From Maricaulis alexandrii (GTDB taxonomy: Bacteria > Pseudomonadota > Alphaproteobacteria > Caulobacterales > Maricaulaceae): DNA of 64,000 nt. The notes under the pieces were generated by a model, which had not been told where the DNA came from, did not search any database, and saw only the letters and a program-made list of their open reading frames with translations. Positions 12,416-63,206 of this stretch are shown piece after piece. Numbering within the stretch: position 1 is the first letter of the stretch; each line of letters begins with the position of its first letter. Location: contig NZ_SWKP01000008.1 of the NCBI RefSeq assembly GCF_005871165.1, positions 62,001 to 126,000 on the forward strand, written 5' to 3'. Position numbers and translations under genes: made by a program.

Positions 12416-12581
12416 ATCATCATTTCCTTGTGACCGGCCGAACCGGGTCCGCGCGCTGCTGCGCCTTTAAGACCGATGAAACCATGGCTGCAATTAAGGC
12501 TTTGGAAACCATAAAAATTTGCAAGACCTTATCTTCGAGCCCCCAGATTGGCCTGCTATGCCCGAGCAGGGAGTTGGGGAC

Positions 12582-15702: not shown

Positions 15703-18315
15703 GTGGGTTTCAGTGTGTTCTGGCGTGTCCTCCTTTCCGGCGTAAGCCTGTTTGTGGCTTCCTTGGCCCTGCCTGCGGCGGGCAACGCCCAAGCGCCGTC
15801 TGAAGCGTCTTTCACGGAACCCGTCACCTATTCCGAACTTGTGGAAGCCTCTCGGGCCGCCATGATGCGCGCACCGCAGGACGCCCTCGACCTGGCCAAT
15901 CAGGCCGGGGCCCGTGTCCGGACCGATGTCGCTGCCGGGGATCGCTCCGAAGCCAATGCCACGCTGAACTGGTTGCGGGCGGAGGCCCTGACCCGGCTCG
16001 GCCGCCCCCTGGAAGCCGAACCGGCCAGCCAGCAAGCGCTTGAGGACCTGGGCGAGAACCCCGCCCCCACGAAACTCTATGCCGACATCCTGGTCGCCAT
16101 TGCCCGGGTAGAGCGGATCACCGGCCGCTATGGCCTGGCGCTGGAACACTTCCAGGCCGCCTATTCGGTCTACCGGGAAATCGATGCCCCGCGCAGCGAA
16201 GCCATCGTCCTGCTGTCGATCGCCTCGATCTATCGCGACGCGCACCAGTATGACCGGGCCGTGGACTATTTCCTCGACGCCTCGGAGCGCTATGACGGCG
16301 ACCCGAACCTGGAGCTCGCGGCCCACAACAATCTGGGCAATGCCTATCGCGAAATGGCGGACTATCCGGCGGCCCTGAACCACTTCACCCGGGCACGCGA
16401 TATCGCGGTCTCGCTGGAAAGCTCCATCCTGGAAGCCCGCATCCTGTCCAACCTGGCAGCCCTCCATGTCGATATGGGCGACTATGCCGCGGCCGACGAA
16501 GCGCTGGACATTTCCTTCAGCCAGATCGACCCGGACGGCACCGAATGGGCCCGTTTCCTGTGGGGTGTCCGGGCCCAGGCCGCATTCGGACGCGGTGAAA
16601 CCGACACCGCCCTGGACGCCATCGCCCGGACCTTTGACGGGATGGGCCTGGACGAGACCACCCAATCCTTCCGCGAATTCCACGAAGCGGCGGCCAGCAT
16701 CTATGAAGCGGCCGGCCAGTCCGAGCGCGCCCTGCCGCACCTGCGCGCCTTCAAGCGCCTGGATGACGAGGCGCGCGAAGTCGCGGCCTCGGCCAACAAC
16801 GCCTTGCTGGGTGCCCAGTTCGATTTCGCCGAGCAGGAATTGCAGATCGAGCAATTGCGGACCGAAAGCCTGGAACAGGAACTGGTGCTGGCCGATACGC
16901 GGGCCCGGCAACAATTCTACATCGTGGTCGGCCTGCTGGGTCTGGCGGCCATCTGTCTGGTATCCGGCGCCCTCTACTACCGCATCCTGCGGCAGCGCAA
17001 TGCCGTCCTGCGCGATGCCCTCTACCGGGACATGGAGACCGGACTTCCGACGCGTTTTGCCGCCGAAGCCCGCGTCGAGAGCATGGACATGACCGGTCTG
17101 GATCCGGTCGTCATGGCGATGGGCATCGACCGCTATCAGCATCTGGAAGGCGTGCTCGGCTTCGACCGCATGGCCGAACTGACCCGGGTCGTCGCCGACC
17201 GTCTGCACGGGGACGAGGATGTGGACATGGTCGTGGTCCTGTCCCGCGGCGCGCTGGGACTGGTCCTGACCCGACCGGCGACGCGGACCCTGTCCGAGAC
17301 CGCCCAGGAATTGCAGTCCCTTCTGGCCGAACCGGTGGAAGTCGACGGCGTCACCCTGGACGTGGCGGTCACGCTCGGCGTGGCGAGCGATGAAAGCCGT
17401 AATGCCTGCACACGCGAAGCCCTGCTGGCCGTGGAACAGGCGCGCGAGGCACACCTGTCCTTCTGCGAGTTCGACGCGGGCAAGCAGCGTGACCAGAGCG
17501 ACAATCTCACCCTGATGAGCCGCATGATGGCCGCCATCACGAGTGGACACATGCAGATGCATTATCAGCCCAAGCTGCATCTGAAGTCCGGCGAGTTCCG
17601 GGGCGCCGAAGCCCTGGTCCGCTGGAATGATCCGGAGCGCGGTTTCATTCCGCCGGACGCCTTCATCGGCCTGGCCGAGGAAACCGGACGGATCCGCGAG
17701 TTTACCGAATGGTCGCTGGACCGGGTGGTCACGGACCAGAAGAGCCTGATGGCCCGTGGCCAGGACGTCCAGATCTCGATCAATATCTCCGGCGCCCTGA
17801 TTTCCGATCCCGACTTTGCCCGCATCGCCCTTGACCGGGTGGCGGCGGCGCGCGGCCGGATCGCGTTCGAGATCACAGAGACGGCGGCGATGGGCAATCC
17901 GGAACGCGCCCTGCAGACGCTGCGTCTGTGGCGCGATGCCGGGATCAAACTGTCGATCGATGATTACGGCACCGGCCTGTCATCCCTGGCCTATCTGCGC
18001 TCACTGCCGGCCGAGGAACTCAAGCTGGACCGGGCCTTTGTCAGCCAGATTGCCACCTCGCAGCGCGACCGCATGCTGGTGAAGTCCACCACGGATCTGG
18101 CCCACGCGCTGGGCCTGGAAATGACGGCAGAGGGTGTCGAGGACGAAGCCGGCCTCGCCTTCCTGAAAATGCTGGGCTGCGACTGGGCGCAGGGCTATCT
18201 GATGTCCCGGGCCCTGCCGCTGGATGCGCTGCGCCATTTCCTGAAAACCCATGCGGACGGCTGGGTTGTGAATACGGGCGATGTCCAGGCCGGCCGGATG
18301 AACTCGGTGATTTGA
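15703..18315 (+). CDS. TPR - degenerate GGDEF - EAL cyclic-di-GMP phosphodiesterase
   Basis: 870 residues: signal or anchor helix (1-30), periplasmic TPR-like helical repeats (~60-390), a coiled segment, a membrane helix (~405-430), then cytoplasmic GGDEF and EAL domains. The GGDEF site is lost (SRGALG at the expected place). The EAL site looks intact: GAEALVRW, SINISG, FEITET, IDDYGTG, LKLDRAF, TAEGVED and QGYL carry the metal, catalytic and substrate residues. It should therefore hydrolyse c-di-GMP under control of a periplasmic TPR sensor. Start is a GTG without a good ribosome site, so the exact N-terminus is uncertain; a second GTG is 12 bases downstream. Confidence 0.88.
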   Translation: MGFSVFWRVLLSGVSLFVASLALPAAGNAQAPSEASFTEPVTYSELVEASRAAMMRAPQDALDLANQAGARVRTDVAAGDRSEANATLNWLRAEALTRLGRPLEAEPASQQALEDLGENPAPTKLYADILVAIARVERITGRYGLALEHFQAAYSVYREIDAPRSEAIVLLSIASIYRDAHQYDRAVDYFLDASERYDGDPNLELAAHNNLGNAYREMADYPAALNHFTRARDIAVSLESSILEARILSNLAALHVDMGDYAAADEALDISFSQIDPDGTEWARFLWGVRAQAAFGRGETDTALDAIARTFDGMGLDETTQSFREFHEAAASIYEAAGQSERALPHLRAFKRLDDEAREVAASANNALLGAQFDFAEQELQIEQLRTESLEQELVLADTRARQQFYIVVGLLGLAAICLVSGALYYRILRQRNAVLRDALYRDMETGLPTRFAAEARVESMDMTGLDPVVMAMGIDRYQHLEGVLGFDRMAELTRVVADRLHGDEDVDMVVVLSRGALGLVLTRPATRTLSETAQELQSLLAEPVEVDGVTLDVAVTLGVASDESRNACTREALLAVEQAREAHLSFCEFDAGKQRDQSDNLTLMSRMMAAITSGHMQMHYQPKLHLKSGEFRGAEALVRWNDPERGFIPPDAFIGLAEETGRIREFTEWSLDRVVTDQKSLMARGQDVQISINISGALISDPDFARIALDRVAAARGRIAFEITETAAMGNPERALQTLRLWRDAGIKLSIDDYGTGLSSLAYLRSLPAEELKLDRAFVSQIATSQRDRMLVKSTTDLAHALGLEMTAEGVEDEAGLAFLKMLGCDWAQGYLMSRALPLDALRHFLKTHADGWVVNTGDVQAGRMNSVI

Positions 18316-51338: not shown

Positions 51339-54300
51339 CTAGAGCGGGCAGGCTGTCGGTGACTTGCCGCCGGACAAGCCCACAATTCCGTCGACATTCT
51401 CAAGCGTGGAGAAAGTCGTCACCGCCAGACCCGCTATCCGGCCGGCATCGGCGAATACGCCCAGTGTGATATTCTTGACCACTTCGCAGGCCATGCCGGC
51501 CAGGGCGAGGCGCAGTGCGGGGGCGATGCCGCCCGCATCCATCAGGATCACGCTCATCGCGACGGCTCCATAAAGCCGGGCCAATCTCTGCCCATAGGCC
51601 GCCGCAATTCCCAGGGAGACACCGCCCACACCGCTCAGCGCGCCGGCGGCACCGGCTGCGGTGGCCAGAAGATTGATCGCCGAAATCGCGCGGTCCAGTT
51701 CCGAAAGCTCACGCGCAATGCGCTCGGCCTGGCTTCCGCCACCACTGGCATCTTCCAGCACACCGACAATATTGGCGCTCTCCACATCGACCAGCCACAT
51801 CGCAGGCACCTCACCGGATGACGGTGCCAGATAATAGGTTTTTGAGAAGGGGAAGGACGGCCTCAATTGCGCCATCAGGTGTTCCCAGGCCTGTTCCTCA
51901 TCGCTGGACAAGTTCGTTTCATGATAGCGGAAGCCCCAGCGCCCCAGTGAGGTCAGGCTGTGCCCGTTCAGCAGATCCGCCGTGCTGCGGTCGAACAGGG
52001 CGGCTTCGGCCAGGTTCAGGTCCAGACTCAGCTCGAAGGCCCGCTGGCGCCGGAAATCCGCATCCGGCGAGAGCACGCTGATCCGGCTGGTCGGGAGCAT
52101 GTCGACACGCTTGATGAAGCGGTCGGATCCCATCACGGGATGCGCGGAATAAAGCACGGCCCGCAGCCCCTGCTCACTGACAGAATGGGTTTCGTCCGAG
52201 AGGACGCCCGAGCGGGACATCAGTGTGACAAGTTCACCCGGCAGGACCGGGACCCCGGCTTCGATGGCCTCAATCATCTGCTCCAGGGAGGCCGCCGGAT
52301 CTCCCAGCGTCTGGTCCAGGTTTTCCAGGGCCAATTTGGAGGTCAGGACATCACCCAGCAGCACGGACAAGGCGGGCGGCGCCCCCTCAAAACCGATCAG
52401 ATGCAGTCCCAGAAAGGCCCCGTGGACTGTCTTGATCTGGTCGTCCGTGACCTCACCGAGTCCGGAATGCCCGGCAAGAACCCGGTGAGCAACAAAACCG
52501 CCTACATCCAGCTCCAGTCGCAGGGACGCGATCTTGCGGGCGCGCCGCCGCGGTGCGCCATCAATCGTGTAGGATGCCGCCTGCTGCACGGTTCCGGCCG
52601 TCACGCTGACCTGACGGTCTCCCGTCGAATGATCCAGGGCCCGATAGGCCAGGGTGTAGAGCGGGCGGTCCTGGCTCAGCAGCATGCGCTCGATGGCCGC
52701 CGCAATCGGTGTCATGTCATCGCCGTCTGGCGCGTCCATGGCTTCGCCGCCCGTGGCCTGGGCCATGGCATCGAACACATTATCAGGCCGACGGCGTTCC
52801 GCCGCCATGTCACGGTCGACATTGACCACAAGCGCGGGCGGGCCAGCCTCCAGAAAGCGCAAATCTGCCGGGTCGGGCGTTCCGCCCAGCAGATCGCCAT
52901 CCGTGGCATAGACAATCAGATCGACCTGCCGCTCGGCCGCGTCGATCAAATGTCCCCAAAGCCGGGAACTGGTGCCCTGGACCGTCACCTCGGCCCCGGG
53001 ATGGATCCGGCGTGCCATCACTTCCACCTGGTCCGCCAGCGCCTGCATCTCCGGGGCCGCACCGCGGAAGGCCGGCGGCATGGAGAGGGATTCATCCGCC
53101 AGGAAGAGAATGCGCGGCGCATTGTCGGACCGGCGCAAGCTGGGCATGACGGCTTCGCCCTCATCTTCCAGTCTGAAATCCGTCACCGACAGGCCCTCGA
53201 CCGGCGTCCCGCTGGCGTCGCGGGGCGTCAGCCCCAACCGCATGTCGGGAAAGCACGAGGCGTCCACGTCAATATCGACCAATGCGACCTGCGGTGCCAG
53301 GCCGGACGGTCCCGGCATGGCCGCGACCGGTTCCCCGTTCACGAGAACCGCACCATCGTCGTCCAGGCCGATTTGGTCCCCGTCCAGCGTGATGACATCG
53401 CCCAGCACGGCGGCGTCATCCGCCAGCGGCTCACCATCCAGCGCCTGGATCGACAGAACCGGCGAAAAGGCGCGCAGATTGCCCAGTTTCGCCGACAGGG
53501 CCTGTGCAGTATCGGCCGCCGGCTTGAAGCCGATCCGGACCTGACGGCCTGCCACCTGCTCTGCCGTCCACTGGGCCTGCACCAGTTCAAACGGGGTTTC
53601 GGGCGCGTCCGTCGTGGTCGCCAGAAGCCTGATATTGACCGGAAGCGCCGGCTCCGGATCGCGCGCCGTGTATTCCGTCAGCCCCGATGGCCAGGGGCCG
53701 AGCTCTGCCTCCGGCCGGACCGGATCGGCATAAAGGGTCTGCCCGTCCGGCTGGGTGATCCGGACCACGGGTGTGCGGCCGATCTGGCGCCTGTAGAAAC
53801 GGTCCGTATGGCCCAGACCGGCAAACCCGTCCTCGCCCATCGCCGCCCGGATGGTCCGTCCGATCGCCGACGCGTCTGGAGATCGGGACCGGATGTCGAC
53901 CATGCCTGAACCGGTCGTGTCGCCTCCGAGCCGGGCCTGCCAGCGTTCAATGTCGCGATCATCCATGGCCGGTTCGAACACCGGTTCAAACGTTCGATAG
54001 AAAACCTGTCCGGTTTGATCTCCCGACCCGGTCGCCGGCGTTTCGACCACATCCGCCGTGACACCGGCCTGGCGAAGCAAATGGGTCAACAAATCGGCCT
54101 TTTCCCGGGCCGTCCCTGCGGCGGAACGCAAGGTGGCGCGATGTCCCCATTGCCGGCCGCCGCCCATGGCGAAACGGTCCGGCTGGCGCGAGATCAGGCG
54201 GATCTCATCCCGGACGAAGCGGTGCAGGGCCGACACATCGCCGTCGGCGACCAGGGCGGCCGCGCGGCCGACACTGTGATCCGGACTGGCCCGCAAGGCC

Positions 54301-54461
54301 GCCCGGACCTCACGCCAGACGGAATAGGGACCGGGCTCAGCCGGCGCTTCACGGGAACACCCCGCCAGCAAGGGGCCTGCACCCGACAGGACCAGGCCAC
54401 TCACTCCCAGTTTGAGTGCCCCCGTCATCACTTCGCGCCGCGTCCGTCCCTGTCGTGACAT
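51339..54461 (-). CDS. Tat lipoprotein with cysteine-less transglutaminase-like segment and VWA domain
   Basis: 1040 residues. MSRQGRTRREVMTGALKL is a Tat signal and PLLAGC a lipobox (Cys35). Residues ~80-140 resemble a transglutaminase core, but the usual G-[DN]-C-R-[ED]-K-A reads GTAREKA, so the nucleophile is Ala118. After beta-rich regions comes a VWA-like domain whose MIDAS is Asp456-E-S-L-S460 with a second Asp in VYATDGDL. A strongly hydrophobic Ala/Gly-rich stretch at ~950-1030 may insert in a membrane. Likely a non-enzymatic envelope assembly or adhesion scaffold. Divergent from the small lipoprotein at 54608. Confidence 0.68.
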   Translation of the reverse strand: MSRQGRTRREVMTGALKLGVSGLVLSGAGPLLAGCSREAPAEPGPYSVWREVRAALRASPDHSVGRAAALVADGDVSALHRFVRDEIRLISRQPDRFAMGGGRQWGHRATLRSAAGTAREKADLLTHLLRQAGVTADVVETPATGSGDQTGQVFYRTFEPVFEPAMDDRDIERWQARLGGDTTGSGMVDIRSRSPDASAIGRTIRAAMGEDGFAGLGHTDRFYRRQIGRTPVVRITQPDGQTLYADPVRPEAELGPWPSGLTEYTARDPEPALPVNIRLLATTTDAPETPFELVQAQWTAEQVAGRQVRIGFKPAADTAQALSAKLGNLRAFSPVLSIQALDGEPLADDAAVLGDVITLDGDQIGLDDDGAVLVNGEPVAAMPGPSGLAPQVALVDIDVDASCFPDMRLGLTPRDASGTPVEGLSVTDFRLEDEGEAVMPSLRRSDNAPRILFLADESLSMPPAFRGAAPEMQALADQVEVMARRIHPGAEVTVQGTSSRLWGHLIDAAERQVDLIVYATDGDLLGGTPDPADLRFLEAGPPALVVNVDRDMAAERRRPDNVFDAMAQATGGEAMDAPDGDDMTPIAAAIERMLLSQDRPLYTLAYRALDHSTGDRQVSVTAGTVQQAASYTIDGAPRRRARKIASLRLELDVGGFVAHRVLAGHSGLGEVTDDQIKTVHGAFLGLHLIGFEGAPPALSVLLGDVLTSKLALENLDQTLGDPAASLEQMIEAIEAGVPVLPGELVTLMSRSGVLSDETHSVSEQGLRAVLYSAHPVMGSDRFIKRVDMLPTSRISVLSPDADFRRQRAFELSLDLNLAEAALFDRSTADLLNGHSLTSLGRWGFRYHETNLSSDEEQAWEHLMAQLRPSFPFSKTYYLAPSSGEVPAMWLVDVESANIVGVLEDASGGGSQAERIARELSELDRAISAINLLATAAGAAGALSGVGGVSLGIAAAYGQRLARLYGAVAMSVILMDAGGIAPALRLALAGMACEVVKNITLGVFADAGRIAGLAVTTFSTLENVDGIVGLSGGKSPTACPL

Positions 54462-54607
54462 GCCTCTCCCCTTCGTTTCAGGCCTCCGGTTCTGAGAACG
54501 AGAAAGCGGCGGAAACCCGGACATGTCCGTTCATGCAGCTGGAACTCGTTTTTCTGTCTGTCCGGACCTGCCGGACCCGTGTTTGACACTTGCCCTTGGA
54601 GATCCAC

Positions 54608-55168
54608 ATGCCTCACACCGTCAGCCGCGCCGCCGTCAGCCTTCTTGCGCTGGGGCTTGTTGCCTGCGGCAATGAAGACGAATCGAACCCTTCCGCCAAT
54701 CGGGACGCCGGCGTATCCGCGAGCGCCCGGCCGAGTGCCCAGTACGGATCGGTCGACTGGACCCTGGATGGCGAGTCCATTGTCATGGGCGTGGACACGG
54801 CGCTCGCAAACAGTTCGACACCCGGCCTCTACGCCGTCCGCATTGACGCCAATCCGCCCGAAGGTGCTCCGACGCGGCACGGCCCTGTCCTGTCACTGTC
54901 TTTCCAGCTGATCCACACCGGCTCATCCTCAACCACCCGGACCGCAGTCCTGTCCTTTGACCCCCGCGGTCCCGGAACGGGGTGGTGGAGCGGCCGGGCC
55001 GGATCCGAGAGCCAGATCCGTCTGAACATCGAGAACGCCGACGTGACCAATGGGCGCCTGACCCTGAGTGGCCGGATCACCGGTCAGTTGATTTCACGGG
55101 CGGACAATGGCGCGACCACAGCTCCTGTCGACGCCCGTTTTTCGATCGAAACCGAAGTCAACGGTTGA
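54608..55168 (+). CDS. small lipoprotein, unknown function
   Basis: 186 residues; ATG 54608 with GGAG 6 bases upstream; lipobox GLVAC. The mature part (~160 residues) appears beta-rich (TRTAVLSFDPRGPGTGWW, RLTLSGRITGQL) and lacks enzyme motifs. It resembles no family I can name. It lies at the edge of the kinase/sigma island and could be part of that envelope system. The open frame extends 18 bases upstream to a TTG but without a better ribosome site. Confidence 0.75.
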   Translation: MPHTVSRAAVSLLALGLVACGNEDESNPSANRDAGVSASARPSAQYGSVDWTLDGESIVMGVDTALANSSTPGLYAVRIDANPPEGAPTRHGPVLSLSFQLIHTGSSSTTRTAVLSFDPRGPGTGWWSGRAGSESQIRLNIENADVTNGRLTLSGRITGQLISRADNGATTAPVDARFSIETEVNG

Positions 55169-55177
55169 GGCGCCGAA

Positions 55178-55200
55178 AGGGGGCGCTCATGGCGCCCCCT
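55178..55200. terminator. stem-loop between convergent genes
   Basis: AGGGGGCGC (55178-55186) pairs with GCGCCCCCT (55192-55200), 5-base loop, 10 bases after the lipoprotein stop and 11 before the next stop on the minus strand. No T-tract, so termination is uncertain. Confidence 0.45.
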
Positions 55201-55210
55201 CCCTCGCCCT

Positions 55211-56794
55211 TTACCGAAGCGCGTGGCAAACGAGATCCGCTTCAAACTGGATCCGCTCACTCGACATAACGTCATTGACGCGGCGTTGCATGGCCCGCAA
55301 TTCAGCCTCGCTCATTCCCGCAAACTGCGGACTTTCGGCAAGGTTCACGTCCTGGCCAGCCGTCCGATAATTCATGCCCATGAGCTCGCGCTCGGAACCG
55401 GACAAATGCTGCCCCATGACTTCGGCCTGACAGGCGCACAGTCCCGGTGAATTGCCGAAGCTCTCGCAGTCCGCCCGCACAGCCTCTCTCCAGCCATTTC
55501 CTCCGGGAGACGACACCCCGGACGCGGCCACGCGCTCGCCGGCGCGCCGCGCAGCGACCAGGTTCGGTGCAGACGTATCCGTACAGGACCGGGCCAGGCC
55601 GGCATCACCGTCCGTCAACCGGTCCACCAGATCCATGTTCGCCAGAGCCCGATTGGGCGGATAGTCCGAGACGGGACGCTGTGGCGTCTCGTACAGGCTC
55701 GTCACCAGAGCATCCGCCACAAAGGCCCGGTCGATATCGGACAAGGCTCCACTGGCGTTCCGGAACCCGTCTGCCACGCATTGGCATGCGAGGGGCAATC
55801 CGCTGTTCTGGCACGCAGACAGGACGAAGGCAGTCTGTCCACCCGGCGGTGTGGTCGAAGTTTCAGCCGGTGCCGGACATGCATCCAGCAAGGCGTCCGT
55901 CATCAAGCCCCCCATCCGGTCCGCGATCCGTTCCAGAACCGGTGTCGGGGTCTCTGCGATCCGGTTCTCGCCCCCCACAGCCGCGATGGCGACACGCGCC
56001 AGACCGGCCTGCTCCTCGGCATCGCTGCCAGCCGATATCCGGCTGTACCTGCGACCGACACAACCACAGTCCAGCCCCATGTCGGAGTCCCTGCAGGCCT
56101 GAAGGATATCGCCGCGTGACGCCGCGGTCAGATCAAGGTCTGCGGACGCCGGCGCAGGCGTCGGCGGCGTGGCGGCTGCGGCGCAATTCCGGGCCACATC
56201 GTTCAAGGGTTCGATCTGCGCGTCATGCCCGCGCAGCAACCGGTTGATCTCGGCAACACGGCTCATATCCGCTGGCGGGGCCCCGTTCAGATTATGGATC
56301 GTGAGGTCGGCGACAGCCTGGCGCTGCTCGAGGTCCGTCCCCATCGCCGCGACCTGATAGGTCGTTTCCACACATCCGCAATCGATCTGCCCCGGATAGC
56401 GCGAACACGCCGCACGGACCTGGTCATCGATCATGCCCTCTGTCATCTGACTGGCGGGAACCGCTTGGGCCGCGCATGTGTCGGTCAGGTCTTCCAGCGC
56501 ATTCACCCGGTCCATCACCGTCATGAGCGCGGACATGTCCATAAGGGCGGGATCCGGTTCGATGCCCAGCATGGTTCCGGTGATGCTGGCCAGCGTGCCA
56601 CGCTCGGGACCGGTCGCGCCCTGGGCGGCTGATTCAAACTCCGCCACCACACAGCTGCAATCCAGATCGAACATGCCGCGATCACAGGCCGAGGCGACAT
56701 GCTGGGCCGGTGGATCTGCAAAGGCGGGCGCAGGCATCAGGCTCAGGGCCAGGACGACGAGCCCGTGCAACAGGCGTTTCGGAAAGTGGGCCAT
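55211..56794 (-). CDS. exported protein of five four-cysteine modules
   Basis: 527 residues; ATG 56794 with GGAG 7 bases upstream, signal peptide to PAFA. It is built of five units of ~95-115 residues, each C-x(8-9)-C-x-C followed 59-68 residues later by a fourth Cys: C37/46/48/107, C130/139/141/204, C234/243/245/306, C328/337/339/404, C443/453/455/523. The first Cys is usually preceded by Ala, and the C-x-C is followed by helical sequence. With 20 cysteines in an exported protein, disulfides are likely. No catalytic motif seen. Third gene of the sigma-kinase operon; family not recognised. Confidence 0.75.
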   Translation of the reverse strand: MAHFPKRLLHGLVVLALSLMPAPAFADPPAQHVASACDRGMFDLDCSCVVAEFESAAQGATGPERGTLASITGTMLGIEPDPALMDMSALMTVMDRVNALEDLTDTCAAQAVPASQMTEGMIDDQVRAACSRYPGQIDCGCVETTYQVAAMGTDLEQRQAVADLTIHNLNGAPPADMSRVAEINRLLRGHDAQIEPLNDVARNCAAAATPPTPAPASADLDLTAASRGDILQACRDSDMGLDCGCVGRRYSRISAGSDAEEQAGLARVAIAAVGGENRIAETPTPVLERIADRMGGLMTDALLDACPAPAETSTTPPGGQTAFVLSACQNSGLPLACQCVADGFRNASGALSDIDRAFVADALVTSLYETPQRPVSDYPPNRALANMDLVDRLTDGDAGLARSCTDTSAPNLVAARRAGERVAASGVSSPGGNGWREAVRADCESFGNSPGLCACQAEVMGQHLSGSERELMGMNYRTAGQDVNLAESPQFAGMSEAELRAMQRRVNDVMSSERIQFEADLVCHALR

Positions 56795-56872
56795 CAAAAT
56801 CTCCGCAGCTTGGCAACACACTGCAGAACGAAATCCGCGGGCGTCACCGGACATGCGGAATGTTGAAGCGTA

Positions 56873-59239
56873 TCAGTCCTGCGTGAGCGTGAGGTCCATC
56901 TGGGCCAGACGATAGCGGCCGAGATAATCGCCAACCCGCAACTGCGCGACCTCGTCGGCATAAGAATCCCGCAGCGAAGCGGCCGCTTCGGCATCCCCCT
57001 CGCCGACAGCGATATAGAAGGCACCCCGCAGGCGTTGGCGGCGCACGGCGTCGCTGTCATCCAGGGTTTCGAGACGGGCCAGTTCCCGCCGGGCCGCGTC
57101 GAGACGGCCCGTTTGGGTCAGACTGCGGATCCGCAAAGGACCAAAAGCGTGCTTGTGGCTATCCGGCGCCCCCCCGAATTCGGCAAAAAGGGCCTCGGCC
57201 GCTTCCAGTTGCGCCAGGGCCGCGCCCGGATTCCCTGCAGCCAGCGACATCGCGCCCTGCAGGGCCCGGGCCTCGGCCAACACGGCGCTGGGCCCCTTGG
57301 TGTCGTCCGCGATGGCTTCCACCGCGTCGAGCGCCTCCTGCGCCCCTTCAACTTCGTCCAGAGCGAAGAAGCGCAGATGAGCCACATTCATCAGCGCACG
57401 GTCCGTGGAAGAGCGACGCGTCGGGTCCACCTCCATCTGCACGGACACGCTTTGCTCCAGCGCCGCTTCCGCGGCAGCAAACTCTCCCAACGCGCTGTGG
57501 TGCACGCCCTTCTCATTGTAGAGGAAGGGGCACCAGAAACAGCCTGTCACTTCCTGGTCGCGGACAATCGCATCCTCCAGCACATTAATGGCTGTGCGCC
57601 GGTCCTCAGTATTGCCGCTGGCCACGGCGAGGCTGGAAACCGACGAGGCATGCGAGGCCGAGGCGTAATAGTCCGGGTCCCGCGCCAGCTCCGCTTCCAG
57701 GGATGACCGCAGGAGCGGAACCGCTTCCTCATTGCGGTCGACCCCCATATAGGCTCGCGCCAAAAGCGCATCCCGTTCCGCATTCAACTGCTCGATCGAC
57801 AGGGTGATGTCACGGACCGGCTCCAGGATTTCGAGCATCGCCGTGTAGTCATTGCGGCGCAGGAAGATCGAACCGATCGCCACCAGGCTGTAGGCCACAT
57901 CGTCCGGATACTCTTCCAAATAGGCGAGATTGGCCTGGGAATATTCGACCAGCTGGTTGCGTACGAAGTCCGGGTCGAGATCATCGGAATCCGCCGAATT
58001 GAACACGCTCAGCAGGGCCTGCGCCTGAGCCGCGCCCAGCCGCCCGGAATACTCAGAGGCCTCGAACAGCACTTCCGTCTCCCCAAGCAGCGTATTCGCC
58101 CGCTCCGCTTCGGCATTGGCGCGCAGCGCAAACCCTGTGCTCGCCGTGATACCGGCCACCAGGCTGATCAGAAACGCCGCTGCCAGCCCGGCCCCCAGCC
58201 GGTGCCGGTCCACCCACCGTGTGAGCCGGTAGCCGGCGCCGCCGCCGCGCGCCTCGACCGGTGCCCGATTGAGAAAATTCCGCAGGTCCGACGCCAACGC
58301 TTCTGCGCTGGCATAGCGGTCGGCCGGATCGCTCGCCAGGCTCCGTTCGAGAATGGCCCTGAGGTCTCTTGGCAAATCCGCATCGTCCGGCAGGCTGGCC
58401 GAACCATCCTCTGCGCGCTGCGGCGATGAGCCTGTCGCCAACTGCGTCAGCGTGGCGCCCAGGGCAAAGACATCGGCCGCGACCGTGACACCCCGGTCAT
58501 GCCATTGTTCGGGCGATGCAAAGGCGCGGGTCAGGGGCAGCCGGATCATGGCATCCCCGTCCGCCGCCTCAAGGCTGGTGGCAACACCGAAATCGATCAG
58601 TTTCAGCTCGCCATTCGGCGTGACGAGGAGATTGGCCGGTTTGAGGTCACGATGCAGGACCAGTCGGCCATGGGCGTGCGCCACGCCGTCACACGCGGCC
58701 AGCATCAGCCTGATGCGACCCTCCAGGCCGAGGCCCTGCTGGTCGGCATGCTCATCGATCGGGACGCCGTCAATGAGTTCCACAACCAGGAACTGGCGCC
58801 CATCAGGGGCGCGTCCGCCATCAATGAGCCGGGCAATATTGGGGTGTTCTAGACGGGCCAGGGTTTGCCGTTCGGCCTCGAACTGGCGATGCTCATCATC
58901 TGCCTCGACCCGGGTCAGCTTGATCGCTGCCGTCTGGTCGTAATGGCCGTCAGCCCGCCGGGCCCGATAGACTTCGCCCATGCCGCCACTGCCCAGAAAC
59001 TGCTCGACCGCCCAGGCGCCCAGCCGGTCGCCGTCCTGAAGCGTGCCGGCATCCTCCGCCGCCCACCCGGCGGTGACCAGAAAACTCATGGCACCTTCCA
59101 TCAGCGCCAGACGGTTTTCGGCGGTCCGCCGATCCTCTTCGCTGTCGAGGCGTTCGGTCAGATGGGCCTTGCGCCGTTGCGGCGGCAGTTTCAGGGCTTC
59201 ATCAACCACAGTCTCGATGAGTGCGAGCGCAACCGGCAT
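56873..59239 (-). CDS. membrane serine/threonine protein kinase with helical-repeat sensor
   Basis: 788 residues. N-terminal ~70 residues helical; Hanks-type kinase ~75-325 with GSGGMGEVY, AAIK (Lys107), HRDLKPAN (Asp198), DFG (Asp217) and a SPEQW activation-loop end. A membrane helix follows (~348-370), then ~400 residues of TPR-like alpha repeats that would be periplasmic. The cysteines in GCFWCPF are the only ones there. Active-site residues are intact. GGGGGAGGG precedes the ATG. It is 32 bases after the sigma gene; that pairing is recurrent in bacteria and suggests it modulates the sigma factor or senses the envelope. Confidence 0.92.
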   Translation of the reverse strand: MPVALALIETVVDEALKLPPQRRKAHLTERLDSEEDRRTAENRLALMEGAMSFLVTAGWAAEDAGTLQDGDRLGAWAVEQFLGSGGMGEVYRARRADGHYDQTAAIKLTRVEADDEHRQFEAERQTLARLEHPNIARLIDGGRAPDGRQFLVVELIDGVPIDEHADQQGLGLEGRIRLMLAACDGVAHAHGRLVLHRDLKPANLLVTPNGELKLIDFGVATSLEAADGDAMIRLPLTRAFASPEQWHDRGVTVAADVFALGATLTQLATGSSPQRAEDGSASLPDDADLPRDLRAILERSLASDPADRYASAEALASDLRNFLNRAPVEARGGGAGYRLTRWVDRHRLGAGLAAAFLISLVAGITASTGFALRANAEAERANTLLGETEVLFEASEYSGRLGAAQAQALLSVFNSADSDDLDPDFVRNQLVEYSQANLAYLEEYPDDVAYSLVAIGSIFLRRNDYTAMLEILEPVRDITLSIEQLNAERDALLARAYMGVDRNEEAVPLLRSSLEAELARDPDYYASASHASSVSSLAVASGNTEDRRTAINVLEDAIVRDQEVTGCFWCPFLYNEKGVHHSALGEFAAAEAALEQSVSVQMEVDPTRRSSTDRALMNVAHLRFFALDEVEGAQEALDAVEAIADDTKGPSAVLAEARALQGAMSLAAGNPGAALAQLEAAEALFAEFGGAPDSHKHAFGPLRIRSLTQTGRLDAARRELARLETLDDSDAVRRQRLRGAFYIAVGEGDAEAAASLRDSYADEVAQLRVGDYLGRYRLAQMDLTLTQD

Positions 59240-59271
59240 ACGGCCCTCCCCCTTGGCAGAAATCGCGTGTT

Positions 59272-59856
59272 TCAGGCCGTCACGGCAGTCGACAGGCGCG
59301 GCTCGATCCAGGCCCGTGCGCGATGCCAGTCACGGCGCACCGTCCGGTCCGTCACGCCCAGCAATTGCGCCGTTTCAGGCTCTGTCAGCCCGGCGAAGAA
59401 GCGACAATCTATGACCCGGACGAGGCGCGGGTCCTCTTGCAGCAATTCCTGCAGCAGCCTGGACAGGTCCACGACAACATCCAGCCGGTCCACGGTGTCG
59501 GGACCGGCCACATCATCATCGAGCTCGACACGAATGGCGTCGCCGCCGCGCTTCTGGGCCAGGCGGGCCTTGGCATGATCCGTCACGACATGCCGCATCG
59601 CCAGCACCGCAGCCCGCCGGAAATGGTCCTCCGACTGCCAGGGGCCGCCCGTGCGCAGTTTCAGATAGGTGGAGTGCAAGAGGTCGCCCGTCAGGAATGT
59701 ATCGCGACCAGGACGGCGGCGGCGGACTTTCCGCGCCATCGCAACCAGCTCGTCATAATGGCACTGGAACAGGTGGTTGGCGTCGCTGACCGTGGTGGCG
59801 CTCCAGCCGCAATCCTGCCCCCCCGGTCCGGCATGTCCGGTTTTCTCACTCGTCAT
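59272..59856 (-). CDS. ECF-type RNA polymerase sigma factor linked to a Ser/Thr kinase
   Basis: 194 residues from ATG 59856 (an in-frame TTG at 59877 is the alternative; neither has a strong ribosome site). Region 2: FLTGDLLHSTYLKLR and RRAAVLAMRHVVTDHAKAR; region 4 helix-turn-helix: RFFAGLTEPETAQLLGVTDRTVRRDWHRARAW. This matches the ECF subgroup encoded next to Hanks-type kinases (TIGR02999-like, lacking a classical anti-sigma gene). Divergent from the exported-protein operon starting at 60048, which it may control. Confidence 0.9.
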   Translation of the reverse strand: MTSEKTGHAGPGGQDCGWSATTVSDANHLFQCHYDELVAMARKVRRRRPGRDTFLTGDLLHSTYLKLRTGGPWQSEDHFRRAAVLAMRHVVTDHAKARLAQKRGGDAIRVELDDDVAGPDTVDRLDVVVDLSRLLQELLQEDPRLVRVIDCRFFAGLTEPETAQLLGVTDRTVRRDWHRARAWIEPRLSTAVTA

Positions 59857-60047
59857 CGTTAGACCCGTTGAACCCAATCACGTTCGACCGCCCCTCGCTC
59901 AGTAGCGGTTGAATACTGGTGCAACCTCCGGCGCAGAGCAAGACAGGCCGGAAAGACAGGAGGGGGCGACGGAGCGATCCGTCCTTCATCCCGCAAGGAC
60001 CGGGCGCACACCCATCCATGCAGGACGTCCAAACAAAGGGGACAATG

Positions 60048-61085
60048 ATGAAAGCGATACTGCACTCAATCCTCGCTGCCGGTGCCTTGTTCGGCGCGGC
60101 AGCCCAGGCTGACGATTTCGACGGTGTCTGGGACACATCCTTCGGCGAAGTTCGCATCCAGGAACGCGCCGGAGCCTTTTGCGGCGAGTACGGAACCGTC
60201 GGCTTTGTGGCCGGATATACCAATGGGGTTTTCGCCCGCGGTGTGTTCGTCCATGCCGATCAGGACACGGGAACGCTCGACAACAAGCGGAATAATCGCG
60301 GCATCTTCCAGTGGGTTCAGTCCACGGATGGCGCCTTCAACGGTCAATGGCTGTGGGGGACGCAGGTCCGGATGTCGCAGGCCCAGCCGTGGAATGGGCA
60401 GCGCAGCAGCGAAACACGTCCGTCCGGATCACAATGGCGGCGCAATGCGGGCCACTGCCTGGGCTATTTGTCCAACCTTCCCGATGCGGCGCACGACTGG
60501 ATGCGCGTCGCTCGCGACATGGAGCGCCCGTCTTCGCCGGCCCCGGCTCCCACCCCTCAGCCGCCAACCCCCGAACCGCAACCGGAACCCCAACCGTCCG
60601 GACCGCCCATCCCCAGCCATGTCGACACGAGCAACTTCTCGGACTGCGAGATGAGTGCGGCCAATGAAAACATTCTGATCTGCACCATGCCGACAGGCCG
60701 GCGCGAGCGCCGCGCGCTCGACTTGAGTCTCTGCCAGGACGGTTCTGTTGAGCCGGCACCTTGGTCCAATGCCATCATCTGTGCAGCCCGGGATGTCGCC
60801 GGTTCCTATTCGCGTTCCTGCGACCGGATGAGCGTGAGCGGAAGCCCTGTGGGCGATGCCGCCCCCAGGACGACCCGCAACTCTTACGTCACCGAATGCG
60901 CGGGCCCGACCATGCGCATGTTGGGGGAAGGCCCTTCACGCACGCTGGTCAATACCGAAAATCGTGTCGTGTTCTTCATGCGGCAGCGCGACGACCGGCG
61001 TTACCGCAATTTCTATCGCGCCAGTGCGTGCGCGTCCCGCCAGTTCTGGAACGAGAACGGCTATCTGCGTTGCAGCGGCAATTGA
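60048..61085 (+). CDS. exported two-domain protein with proline-rich linker
   Basis: 345 residues from the second of two adjacent ATGs (AAGGGGAC 5 bases before); signal peptide to AAQA. An N-terminal ~130-residue domain begins DDFDGVWDTSFGEVRI, a lipocalin-/extracellular-domain-like pattern. Then PAPAPTPQPPTPEPQPEPQP forms a linker, and a C-terminal ~150-residue cysteine-containing domain follows. No catalytic motif recognised. First gene of the operon divergent from the sigma factor; function unknown, probably an envelope or secreted component. Confidence 0.75.
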   Translation: MKAILHSILAAGALFGAAAQADDFDGVWDTSFGEVRIQERAGAFCGEYGTVGFVAGYTNGVFARGVFVHADQDTGTLDNKRNNRGIFQWVQSTDGAFNGQWLWGTQVRMSQAQPWNGQRSSETRPSGSQWRRNAGHCLGYLSNLPDAAHDWMRVARDMERPSSPAPAPTPQPPTPEPQPEPQPSGPPIPSHVDTSNFSDCEMSAANENILICTMPTGRRERRALDLSLCQDGSVEPAPWSNAIICAARDVAGSYSRSCDRMSVSGSPVGDAAPRTTRNSYVTECAGPTMRMLGEGPSRTLVNTENRVVFFMRQRDDRRYRNFYRASACASRQFWNENGYLRCSGN

Positions 61086-61128
61086 TCCGGCTTGCGCCAA
61101 CCCTTCCGAACTCACTTTGGAGGACATG

Positions 61129-61797
61129 ATGTCCATTCACTTTTCCAAACCGGCCAGCTGGCTCATGGCGGCCTTCGCGGCCATGGGTCTGTCAGCCACG
61201 GCGCTCGCCGATTGCCGCGACACGATCGAGCTCTCGGCCGAACCGGCAGACCGGGAAATCACACACCGGGACGCCGAAGCCGGGCTCTATCGATACCTGT
61301 CTGAGTCGCTTGTCCTGTGTGCCGGTTACGGCCTCGAACACGGGCAAGTCCTGCTGATCCGCGTCGAGGACCGGCGCCTTGCCGATGTCCACCTGTCCGC
61401 GGGCTTCCGGCTGCCATCCCGCTCACGCGACACCCTGGCCGGACTGCTCGGCCAGGCGAGTGACGATGAGGGGCGCGCCTTTCCGGGCGACAACTTCTTT
61501 CCGGGGGACAATTTCTTCCCCGGAGACAACTTCTTCCCGGGTGACAATTTCTTCCCCGGAGACAATTTCTTCCCCGGCGACAATTTCTTTCCGGGCGACA
61601 ATTTTGAGCCCGGAACGCCTCTCACGGCGGACATGCGGGACGCCATTCTGGGCGACGCGCCCAGCGACCTCGCCGCCCTCACCGAGCGCAGCATCCGCCA
61701 GGCCCGTCTCAATGACGGCCTGATCATCGCGGTGATCGACGCCAGCGGGGACCTGCCCTCCCGCGCGGTCATCCTGCCGCTGCGGTCCCGGCGCTGA
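61129..61797 (+). CDS. exported protein with seven FPGDNF hexapeptide repeats
   Basis: 222 residues from ATG 61129 (GGAGG 5 bases upstream; another ATG directly before). Signal peptide to TALA. An N-terminal ~95-residue domain with two cysteines precedes seven perfect FPGDNF repeats (residues ~118-159), and a C-terminal ~65-residue domain (DMRDAILGDAPSDLAALTERSIRQARLNDG) follows. No enzyme motif. Second gene of the operon, 43 bases after the first. The acidic Asp/Asn-rich loops could bind a cation; that is speculation. Confidence 0.8.
   Translation: MSIHFSKPASWLMAAFAAMGLSATALADCRDTIELSAEPADREITHRDAEAGLYRYLSESLVLCAGYGLEHGQVLLIRVEDRRLADVHLSAGFRLPSRSRDTLAGLLGQASDDEGRAFPGDNFFPGDNFFPGDNFFPGDNFFPGDNFFPGDNFFPGDNFEPGTPLTADMRDAILGDAPSDLAALTERSIRQARLNDGLIIAVIDASGDLPSRAVILPLRSRR
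61480..61605 (+). repeat. seven-copy 18-bp coding repeat (FPGDNF)
   Basis: Seven consecutive 18-base units, all encoding F-P-G-D-N-F with no amino-acid change, though codons vary (ttt/ttc, ccg/ccc, ggc/ggg/gga/ggt, aac/aat). The protein repeat is under stricter constraint than the DNA. Confidence 0.95.
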
Positions 61798-61822
61798 ACC
61801 CACCCCGAAAGGAGACACAACC

Positions 61823-62551
61823 ATGTTGCTGACAACCCTGACCCTGTCGCTTCTCATCCAGACGACACCCGACCTCACCGCCATCCCGGACCACCGCGCC
61901 ACGGCCCAGGTCTCGATGCAGGATGCCACGCACGAGATCGAGGTGCGCGCCTCGGGATCCTGGACCCGGATGACCCTTCCGGCAGGCCTGTCCGGCGCGC
62001 CCTACGCGCATGTCATGCTGCTGGACTATGATACGGGCGACGCCGCGATTTTCCCGGTCGGGCGTGATGTGCCCGACAGCTCGCGCACCATTCTGCGCCT
62101 GTCACCGGACCGCACGCCCATGGCCGATATCGGCTTTCGGGCTCCGGACATGCCGGCCCGGGGCCAGACCCTGAGCATTGCGGGGGAGACCTGCACCGAC
62201 CACGTCCAGGACACCCAGAATGCCTACGGCGAAATCGTCCGCGCGGCGGCCTGCTTCACGCCGGACGGCATCCTTCTGCGGCAGGCCGTGGATGGCGAGG
62301 TCCTCTACCAGGTGACCGCGATCGAACGCGCGCCGCAATCACCGGCCCTGTTCGAGACGCCCCAGGGCTATCTGGACCTCGACATGGGCGGGATGGCCGC
62401 CGTGCCGGCCGGCGAGGATGAGGAGGCCGGCGTCCTGAACGGTGTGCTCGGTCGCTATGGCGACCAGGTGCGTGACCAGGCCGACCGCCGAACCGGTGAA
62501 GAGGTCGAGGAACGAACCCGGAATGCCCTGAACCGCCTGTTCGGAAACTAG
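61823..62551 (+). CDS. exported protein of unknown function
   Basis: 242 residues; ATG with AAAGGAG upstream. A short N-terminal hydrophobic segment (MLLTTLTLSLLIQT) may be a signal. Central beta-rich region with GETCTDHV and AACFTPDGILLRQ (paired cysteines), then an acidic, charged C-terminal coil (VRDQADRRTGEEVEERTRNAL). Resembles generic periplasmic DUF4412-type proteins only in outline. Third gene of the operon, 25 bases after the repeat protein. Confidence 0.7.
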   Translation: MLLTTLTLSLLIQTTPDLTAIPDHRATAQVSMQDATHEIEVRASGSWTRMTLPAGLSGAPYAHVMLLDYDTGDAAIFPVGRDVPDSSRTILRLSPDRTPMADIGFRAPDMPARGQTLSIAGETCTDHVQDTQNAYGEIVRAAACFTPDGILLRQAVDGEVLYQVTAIERAPQSPALFETPQGYLDLDMGGMAAVPAGEDEEAGVLNGVLGRYGDQVRDQADRRTGEEVEERTRNALNRLFGN

Positions 62552-62642
62552 TCCGGCCATCCGGCCCCTCGACGGCCTCCGGCTTGCCCGGACGGACGCT
62601 CGCGGGGCCGCCCCACTCATTCATCCACAACGAGACGCTTCC

Positions 62643-63143
62643 ATGAACCACGTTTATCCGAAAGGGATTCAGATCCTGCTGGCCGGCAGCGCGGCCCTCG
62701 CCCTCACCGCCTGCCAGTCGGACACGGCGCCCGCTCCGGGAACCGTCCAGATCACCTTCTACGCCCACGAGACCGAAGACGGAGTCTGCGAACCCCGGCG
62801 CGTTGCCCGCGTCAATGTGCCGGAGACCGACCTGTATGCGGTGTACGGGGATGTCCGATTCGTCGACACGCGCGGACAGGGCATGACGCGCCTGCCCCTG
62901 CAGTATGTCTTCAACGGCTATGATGACAGCGGGATTGCCGTGTCAGAGGCCCGAACCGGCCTCAACACCGACACGGCCTGTGCCGATCTGCGCATCGACA
63001 ACATGATTGATCATTGCCTGCTGAATGCCGATCGCCACGCGGAAGCGCCCTGTCCAACGCTGGAATATTCCGGCGAAGGCTTCCACAGCATCAACCTGAC
63101 ACAGGACCGCTCCCAGCTAGGCACCCCACCCGGGGACGGCTGA
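62643..63143 (+). CDS. small lipoprotein with four-to-six cysteines
   Basis: 166 residues; lipobox ALTAC after a short basic N-terminus. The mature domain contains C-rich segments (EDGVCEPRR, DTACADLRIDNMIDHCLL, APCPTLEYSG), giving possible disulfides in the periplasm. No family recognised. Last gene of the operon: a strong terminator starts 28 bases after its stop. Confidence 0.75.
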   Translation: MNHVYPKGIQILLAGSAALALTACQSDTAPAPGTVQITFYAHETEDGVCEPRRVARVNVPETDLYAVYGDVRFVDTRGQGMTRLPLQYVFNGYDDSGIAVSEARTGLNTDTACADLRIDNMIDHCLLNADRHAEAPCPTLEYSGEGFHSINLTQDRSQLGTPPGDG

Positions 63144-63170
63144 CGCCCCTCAACTCACGCAAACCCCGCA

Positions 63171-63206
63171 AGCCCCGGCGCGACCAGCGCCGGGGCTGAA
63201 TTTTTT
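63171..63206 (+). terminator. intrinsic terminator ending the exported-protein operon
   Basis: AGCCCCGGCGC (63171-63181), loop GACCA, GCGCCGGGGCT (63187-63197), then TTTTTT (63201-63206): an 11-bp perfect stem. Confidence 0.95.

Follow-up and report, generated by a model that had tools for sequence, protein, structure and literature searches.

A 64,000-nucleotide stretch of the Maricaulis alexandrii genome (family Maricaulaceae), hereafter the window, encodes an extracytoplasmic function (ECF) sigma factor, S (59272..59856, minus strand), beside a Hanks-type Ser/Thr kinase, K (56873..59239, minus strand), amid genes for mostly exported proteins, here named A, B, C and P1 to P4. The explanation that best fits the data as a whole, and that we judge to be probable, is that S is switched by K and would act at private promoters to express a closed local regulon of these proteins. 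The regulatory logic has known precedents; what is new is the cargo, the private promoter predicted here, the changed phospho-site of S, the proposed closed local regulon and the FPGD-repeat protein family. The genes, the promoter enrichment, the recurrence of the cargo and the occurrence of FPGD arrays across phyla were computed here. A kinase-linked ECF sigma factor gains a specific predicted promoter and what would be a small, closed regulon, which makes the entire circuit testable with a handful of reporters. The locus poses the question of how an ECF43-like sigma factor is switched when the usual phospho-Thr is Gly. It also brings out an unnamed exported family that displays FPGDxF arrays and is repeatedly encoded near vWA proteins.

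In the proposed mechanism, K would span the inner membrane, its kinase domain cytoplasmic and its TPR part periplasmic, and may sense an envelope signal. K would then phosphorylate and activate the adjacent S, by analogy with ECF43 sigma factors. S would direct RNA polymerase to the TGTCCG[G/T]-N16-CGTT sites upstream of A, B, C and the P1-P4 operon and to almost no other place in the genome. The exported products would comprise the lipoproteins (A, B and P4), the cysteine-module protein C, P1, and P2, which displays the FPGD array. No copy of the motif stands before the sigma-kinase pair, so these two genes probably have basal expression from another promoter.

The predicted promoter motif TGTCCG[G/T]-N16-CGTT

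The bipartite motif was first spotted by eye in a comparison of the upstream regions of several sigma loci, and its strict form was defined as TGTCCGG-N16-CGTT. A motif search gave four predicted ECF promoters in the locus, all of which stand 5' of a cargo unit. The site of A (54497..54523, minus strand) is strict and lies ~36 bp 5' of the ATG. Back to back with it is the site of B (54524..54550, plus strand), a one-base variant (TGTCCGT-N16-CGTT). Strict copies also occur in the gap between the kinase gene and C (56827..56853, minus strand) and before P1-P4 (59834..59860, plus strand), where the site overlaps the 5' end of the sigma gene. Spacers of 8 to 24 were tried in the locus, and copies (four) were found with a spacer of 16 only. 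As expected of ECF promoters, the sites offer conserved -35 and -10 elements, constantly spaced, upstream of the putative target genes. The TGTCCGG element alone was uninformative (54 copies in the window), and the bipartite form was needed. A scan for sigma-70-type promoters returned one weak site, not above chance.

The window contains four strict copies against 0.04 expected, and 0 of 100 shuffles reached four. Three of them precede A, C and P1, and the other lies within another gene (48182). The 3.35-Mb genome contains eight strict copies. Three of them, those at the locus, precede cargo; the remaining five are inside predicted reading frames, in one case right at the beginning of a lipoprotein frame. 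Twelve sigma-bearing relatives were searched for the same form (genomes and loci of the comparison are given by G and L numbers). The sigma loci of G021 (two sites), G137, G102, G063 and G072 have strict sites, six in all against 0.11 expected in the 10-kb stretches (p ~2e-9, own genome left out). The relatives' sites lead into the start codons of P4 (L051), a LuxR-type gene (L058), a lipoprotein gene (L053) and an exporter-like gene (L049). The LuxR-type gene is divergent from the sigma gene in L058, L059 and L061, and TGTCCG[G/C]-N16-CGTT precedes it in all three (TGTCCGC in L059 and L061). From these sequence comparisons we infer that S recognizes the motif. As the motif stands before every cargo unit (A, B, C and P1-P4) and is nearly confined to the locus, S most likely drives a self-contained local regulon.

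An earlier note on this DNA had proposed that the sigma factor drives the facing P1-P4 operon. The distribution of the motif supports such control, and an ECF-type motif was found before this operon in place of a housekeeping promoter. The note had expected the promoter at 59857-60047; a candidate does lie upstream of P1, but the 59834-59860 site is mostly inside the sigma gene and just outside that interval. C had been listed as the last gene of the minus-strand operon. It is in that place, but it is not an operon tail only, as it has its own promoter candidate.

Sigma factor, kinase and the phospho-site

S matches PF07638 (1e-34) and TIGR02999 (148.9 bits against a cut-off of 126.15) in profile searches. 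K matches the Pkinase profile (8e-36), and its catalytic motifs are intact, including the Gly loop (GSGGMG), the catalytic Lys (AAIK), HRDLKPAN, DFG and ASPE. These matches bear out the ECF sigma and Ser/Thr kinase identities given in the earlier note. One hydrophobic segment (residues ~348-366) separates the kinase domain of K from a C-terminal part with weak TPR matches, and the latter is predicted to lie outside the cytoplasm. A Hanks-type kinase gene is found beside the sigma gene here and in most related loci fetched. This gene pairing makes phospho-control of S by K likely.

ECF43 sigma factors do not keep the acidic DAED motif of sigma2.2 and typically have QTTA (PMC8999054, PMC13147305), with Thr at the third position in 88% of them (PMC13147305). 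According to PMC8999054 and PMC13147305, EcfP is switched on via phosphorylation of the second Thr by its Hanks kinase, and EcfK, like EcfP, is activated by the adjacent Hanks kinase. Additional phospho-sites in the linker matter in EcfK of Xanthomonas citri (PMC13147305). The sigma2.2 site of S reads LTGD-LLHST in the alignment (L55-T56-G57-D58). The DAED motif is not kept, and its last Asp (Asp58) is retained. Most close relatives of S have QTTA or LTTD, and Thr occupies the canonical phospho-position in L048, L050, L051, L052, L059, L061 and others. The phosphorylatable neighbours of this position in S are T56, S62 and T63, and T56 is near-invariant in the clade.

The EcfP-PknT pair of Vibrio parahaemolyticus and the EcfK-PknS pair of X. 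citri resemble S-K in that an ECF sigma factor without the DAED motif adjoins a transmembrane Hanks kinase (PMC8999054, PMC13147305). Both pairs govern kinase-switched regulons (PMC8999054, PMC13147305), as would be the case here. S differs from both in having Gly at the phospho-Thr position and Ser in place of the conserved Glu. Its regulon also appears to be local and to consist of undescribed exported proteins, whereas theirs concern polymyxin resistance or type VI secretion. Classical ECF sigma factors with a membrane anti-sigma factor share the two-element ECF-type promoter and the envelope cargo, but here the kinase takes the place of the anti-sigma factor and no anti-sigma gene was noticed in the locus. 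G105 has five sigma genes of this type (L050, L055, L057, L060 and L036), three of them within ~55 kb; a kinase gene is near each and the exported neighbours differ.

Cargo proteins and the FPGD-repeat family

None of A, B, C and P1-P4 had a family match in a Pfam search at E 0.1. Several of them recur beside related sigma-kinase pairs, as the association proposed in the earlier note implies. C (55211..56794, minus strand) is an exported protein with exactly 20 Cys in five C-x(8-9)-C-x-C...C modules. It was found in 2 of 149 genomes, both times beside a sigma-kinase pair; its sole relative is in G021 (L051). P4 (62643..63143, plus strand) is a lipoprotein (lipobox LALTAC) with relatives in G021 (41% identity, L051), beside a sigma-kinase pair, and in Pelagibacterium (46%), beside P2; it was found in 0 of 384 other genomes of the class-wide sample. 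P3 (61823..62551, plus strand; 242 aa) has a doubtful signal peptide, and its relatives adjoin the kinase gene in L058, L059 and L061. P2 (61126..61797, plus strand) has relatives near related sigma-kinase pairs in Alkalicaulis (L061), G072 (L059), an Oceanicaulis metagenome-assembled genome (MAG; L081/L101), G105 (L050) and G078 (L052). P2 and sigma are on separate short contigs in G081. Over the 149 genomes, P2 and the close sigma clade co-occur (Fisher p 4e-5; 2e-4 without the own genome), and the two are close neighbours. A doubtful weak P2 match in G009 (26 bits) was entered against linkage in this test. P1 (60045..61085, plus strand) is an exported protein of 346 aa with 10 Cys, and no relatives of it were noticed in the loci examined.

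A (51339..54461, minus strand) carries a Tat-type (twin-arginine translocation) signal and a lipobox (LLAGC) and is likely an outer-membrane lipoprotein. Relatives that match over nearly all of its length occur in G105 (44% identity; L057, near a related sigma-kinase pair) and twice in Maribacter (28%). Its vWA-type site (DESLSM ... ATDGD) contains D456, S458, S460 and D521, which are invariant across four homologues. A thus shares DxSxS and a later Asp with vWA (MIDAS) proteins (PF00092, PF13519), and such proteins occur near P2 in several loci. Unlike them, A stays under Pfam and NCBIfam thresholds (no Pfam match at E 0.1; TIGR03436 at 22.5 bits against a cut-off of 81.25), and the rest of A matches nothing curated above threshold. 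Residues 77-143 match the PDB profile 3kd4 (E 0.002) and resemble a non-catalytic transglutaminase core. B (54608..55168, plus strand) is a lipoprotein (lipobox LGLVAC) with a weak relative in G105 locus L057 (29% over 66 residues). In Maribacter, a 174-aa lipoprotein gene likewise adjoins A.

P2 carries an array of FPGDNF hexapeptides encoded by an 18-bp tandem repeat of seven copies (61479..61604, plus strand), which the earlier note had missed. We define the FPGD-repeat family by an export signal and an alpha/beta scaffold whose halves are separated by tandem xPGDx[F/L/Y] units, and P2 has all of these features. The export signal and the interruption of the scaffold by the array are common to the nine aligned P2 homologues. 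Further arrays were collected with a genome-wide pattern scan followed by reading of the frames. Several of the 27 pattern matches (e.g. L067-L069, L074, L078, L082-L086 and L090) were dropped as wrong-frame or unrelated. Arrays occur in Alphaproteobacteria, a gammaproteobacterium (Spongiibacteraceae MAG), Rhodohalobacter, a Balneolaceae MAG, Maribacter (Bacteroidota), a Gemmatimonadota MAG and a Lujinxingiaceae MAG. The P2 scaffold is not universal; the Gemmatimonadota and Lujinxingiaceae MAGs, for example, bear the array on other kinds of protein. The Lujinxingiaceae MAG encodes large FPGDHF-array proteins (L080:4630-7194 and L079) with a kinase gene in the neighbourhood. FPGD repeats were mentioned in no relevant paper found. 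An AlphaFold2 model of P2 has a mean predicted local distance difference test score of 59 (low confidence), with most of residues 118-162 disordered and the best parts of the scaffold at ~70-83. On this model, P2 reads as a scaffold that would present a flexible multivalent motif.

A vWA-bearing protein is encoded within ~10 kb of P2 in nine loci. The neighbour is of the A type in the window and in Maribacter. The other loci are in G105, G078, Alkalicaulis, G072, Oceanicaulis, Pelagibacterium and Pseudooceanicola. No vWA protein was found near P2 in Phaeobacter or L126-L132. In L126, L127, L129 and L131, the P2 relatives stand directly 5' of a gene for a flavin adenine dinucleotide (FAD)-dependent oxidoreductase, and several have twin-arginine signals and PGDM-type units. 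A kinase like K stands before P2 in L129, and no sigma gene was noticed there.

The cargo most likely functions in a surface assembly that the exported products would build or protect. Binding of FPGD by vWA domains is a conjecture that can be carried further. P2 and a vWA protein (A or another) could join the lipoproteins in a cell-surface assembly that is undescribed so far and present in several phyla. The metal site of the vWA domain would there bind the Asp that recurs along the displayed FPGDxF array, loosely like integrin I domains and collagen motifs. In this lineage the assembly would have come under a dedicated kinase-switched sigma factor whose phospho-site is rewired and whose promoter is private. 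We consider this extended proposal unlikely as it stands.

Two further proteins have similar repeats. A 71-aa frame without an export signal in Mameliella sp. (L076:1624-1839) combines TAGDEVAVQINHNH-type repeats with FPGDNF units, and sigma-like and anti-sigma-like genes lie nearby. A subtilase (PF00082) encoded at 12519-15527 of the window has ~16 PF[HWY]GDI-type heptapeptides near its N-terminus (12726-13079). It resembles P2 as an exported protein with tandem short repeats and an F-x-G-D core. It differs in having a seven-residue unit, PF[HWY]GDI[NSD], on an S8 protease; the likeness is one of repeat core, and homology to P2 was not demonstrated.

Alternative explanations and genomic context

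Several observations weigh against a kinase-switched sigma factor with private promoters. The canonical phospho-Thr position (third of QTTA) is Gly57 in S, and Ser (S62) stands where this site otherwise has a near-invariant Glu. The motif was seen first in a subset of the same loci, so the counts in relatives are only a partly independent test. Strict or near-strict copies are absent from the fetched stretches L047, L048, L057 and L060 and from the L050 sigma neighbourhood, and the P1-P4 leader would be ~180 nt. The cargo varies widely from locus to locus, and P2 is found also without sigma. Gly57 in place of Thr means that the canonical phospho-site is missing; hence S is labelled ECF43-like and is not filed as a canonical ECF43 member. 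S might then be constitutive, or be switched via T56, S62, T63 or the linker, or K might target another protein. The two substitutions, the retained Asp58 and the linker phospho-sites of EcfK (PMC13147305) are in keeping with this alternative, which we regard as somewhat unlikely given the kinase pairing in most relatives, the intact catalytic motifs of K and the near-invariance of T56. Switching via another residue would be a variant of kinase control of S, not its opposite. It is quite improbable that some other sigma factor of the cell reads the motif, with the S-K pair acting on different targets. In favour of this reading, the link between motif and S comes from sequence, the genome has at least five further, weaker matches to the sigma profile, and some loci with related sigma genes lack the motif. 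Against this, the promoter-placed copies in the genome are confined to the locus of S itself, and copies cluster at the sigma loci of five other genomes.

The closest contender to a kinase-switched regulon that works as one unit treats the sigma-kinase pair as an interchangeable switch and the cargo as a local set of unrelated exported genes captured by it; the cargo would then be a regulon and not one working machine. The earlier note had taken conservation of the pair without the cargo as evidence against its proposal, and this is true in part: L047, L049, L053, L055, L056 and L060 have other cargo. In L047 and L049 the neighbours of the pair are an RND-type exporter and a LolA-like protein. 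Close sigma relatives with a kinase have other exported proteins as neighbours in L053, L055, L056 and L060. The cargo is therefore modular, and the pair is a reusable switch rather than part of one fixed six-gene system. The lack of noticed P1 relatives and the occurrence of P2 without sigma beside the FAD-dependent oxidoreductase gene fit the same alternative. However, combinations of the unusual families P2, A, P3, P4 and C recur across distant genomes, even where sigma is lacking: Maribacter has P2 and A together, and Pelagibacterium has P2 together with P4 and a vWA protein. In addition, P4 was found in 0 of the 384 other genomes of the class sample. We hold this alternative to be possible but doubtful. 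As for the FPGD array, its 18-bp tandem structure and the variation of copy number among homologues would suit a functionless slippage product. Yet xPGDx[F/L/Y] keeps its place within a similar scaffold in Alphaproteobacteria, the gammaproteobacterium and Rhodohalobacter, and the residue after Asp varies (N, H, D, S, M, A) while the pattern stays. Slippage without function is very improbable on these grounds.

The locus layout agrees in large part with the earlier note. The reading frames of the sigma factor, the kinase, the cysteine protein and the facing operon are all open, the cysteine protein does have its five modules of four Cys (20 counted), and the terminator called perfect is fairly described. 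This intrinsic terminator of the P1-P4 operon (63171..63197, plus strand) has an 11-pair stem with G-C in 10 of 11 pairs, followed by GAATTTTTTG. The operon spans 60045-63143 and faces the sigma-kinase side. It had been said to start 191 bases from the sigma gene; it does face that gene, but the first ATG of P1 (60045) is 188 bp away. Three of the four proteins described as exported or lipid-anchored are so, but P3 lacks a convincing signal peptide. The set as a whole is not cysteine-rich, a description that applies to C (20 Cys) and P1 (10 Cys). The limits given for the locus were too narrow: A and B are also members, and the unit reaches left to A (51339-54461). The suggestion of a secretion system finds no support, as the locus has no secretion machinery; the suggestion of an envelope response is plausible.

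A sigma match at E 1e-15 was found in 0 of 18 same-genus genomes of the sample, but 21 further genomes from the family and the order have one. The sigma factor is therefore sporadic. On the left flank, same-genus genomes share the flanking dehydrogenase gene alone and the sequence beyond differs in each; insertion or a clean empty site was not demonstrated. Genes of low-GC relatives were taken by an open reading frame length rule instead of a gene caller.

An autotransporter frame at the right edge (window 63456 to L137 57-9632) extends to a giant protein of up to ~3190 aa, and the strict sigma motif was not found before it. Directly after the subtilase gene, at 15703-18315, the window encodes a TPR protein that carries an EAL domain (cyclic-di-GMP turnover) at its C-terminus.

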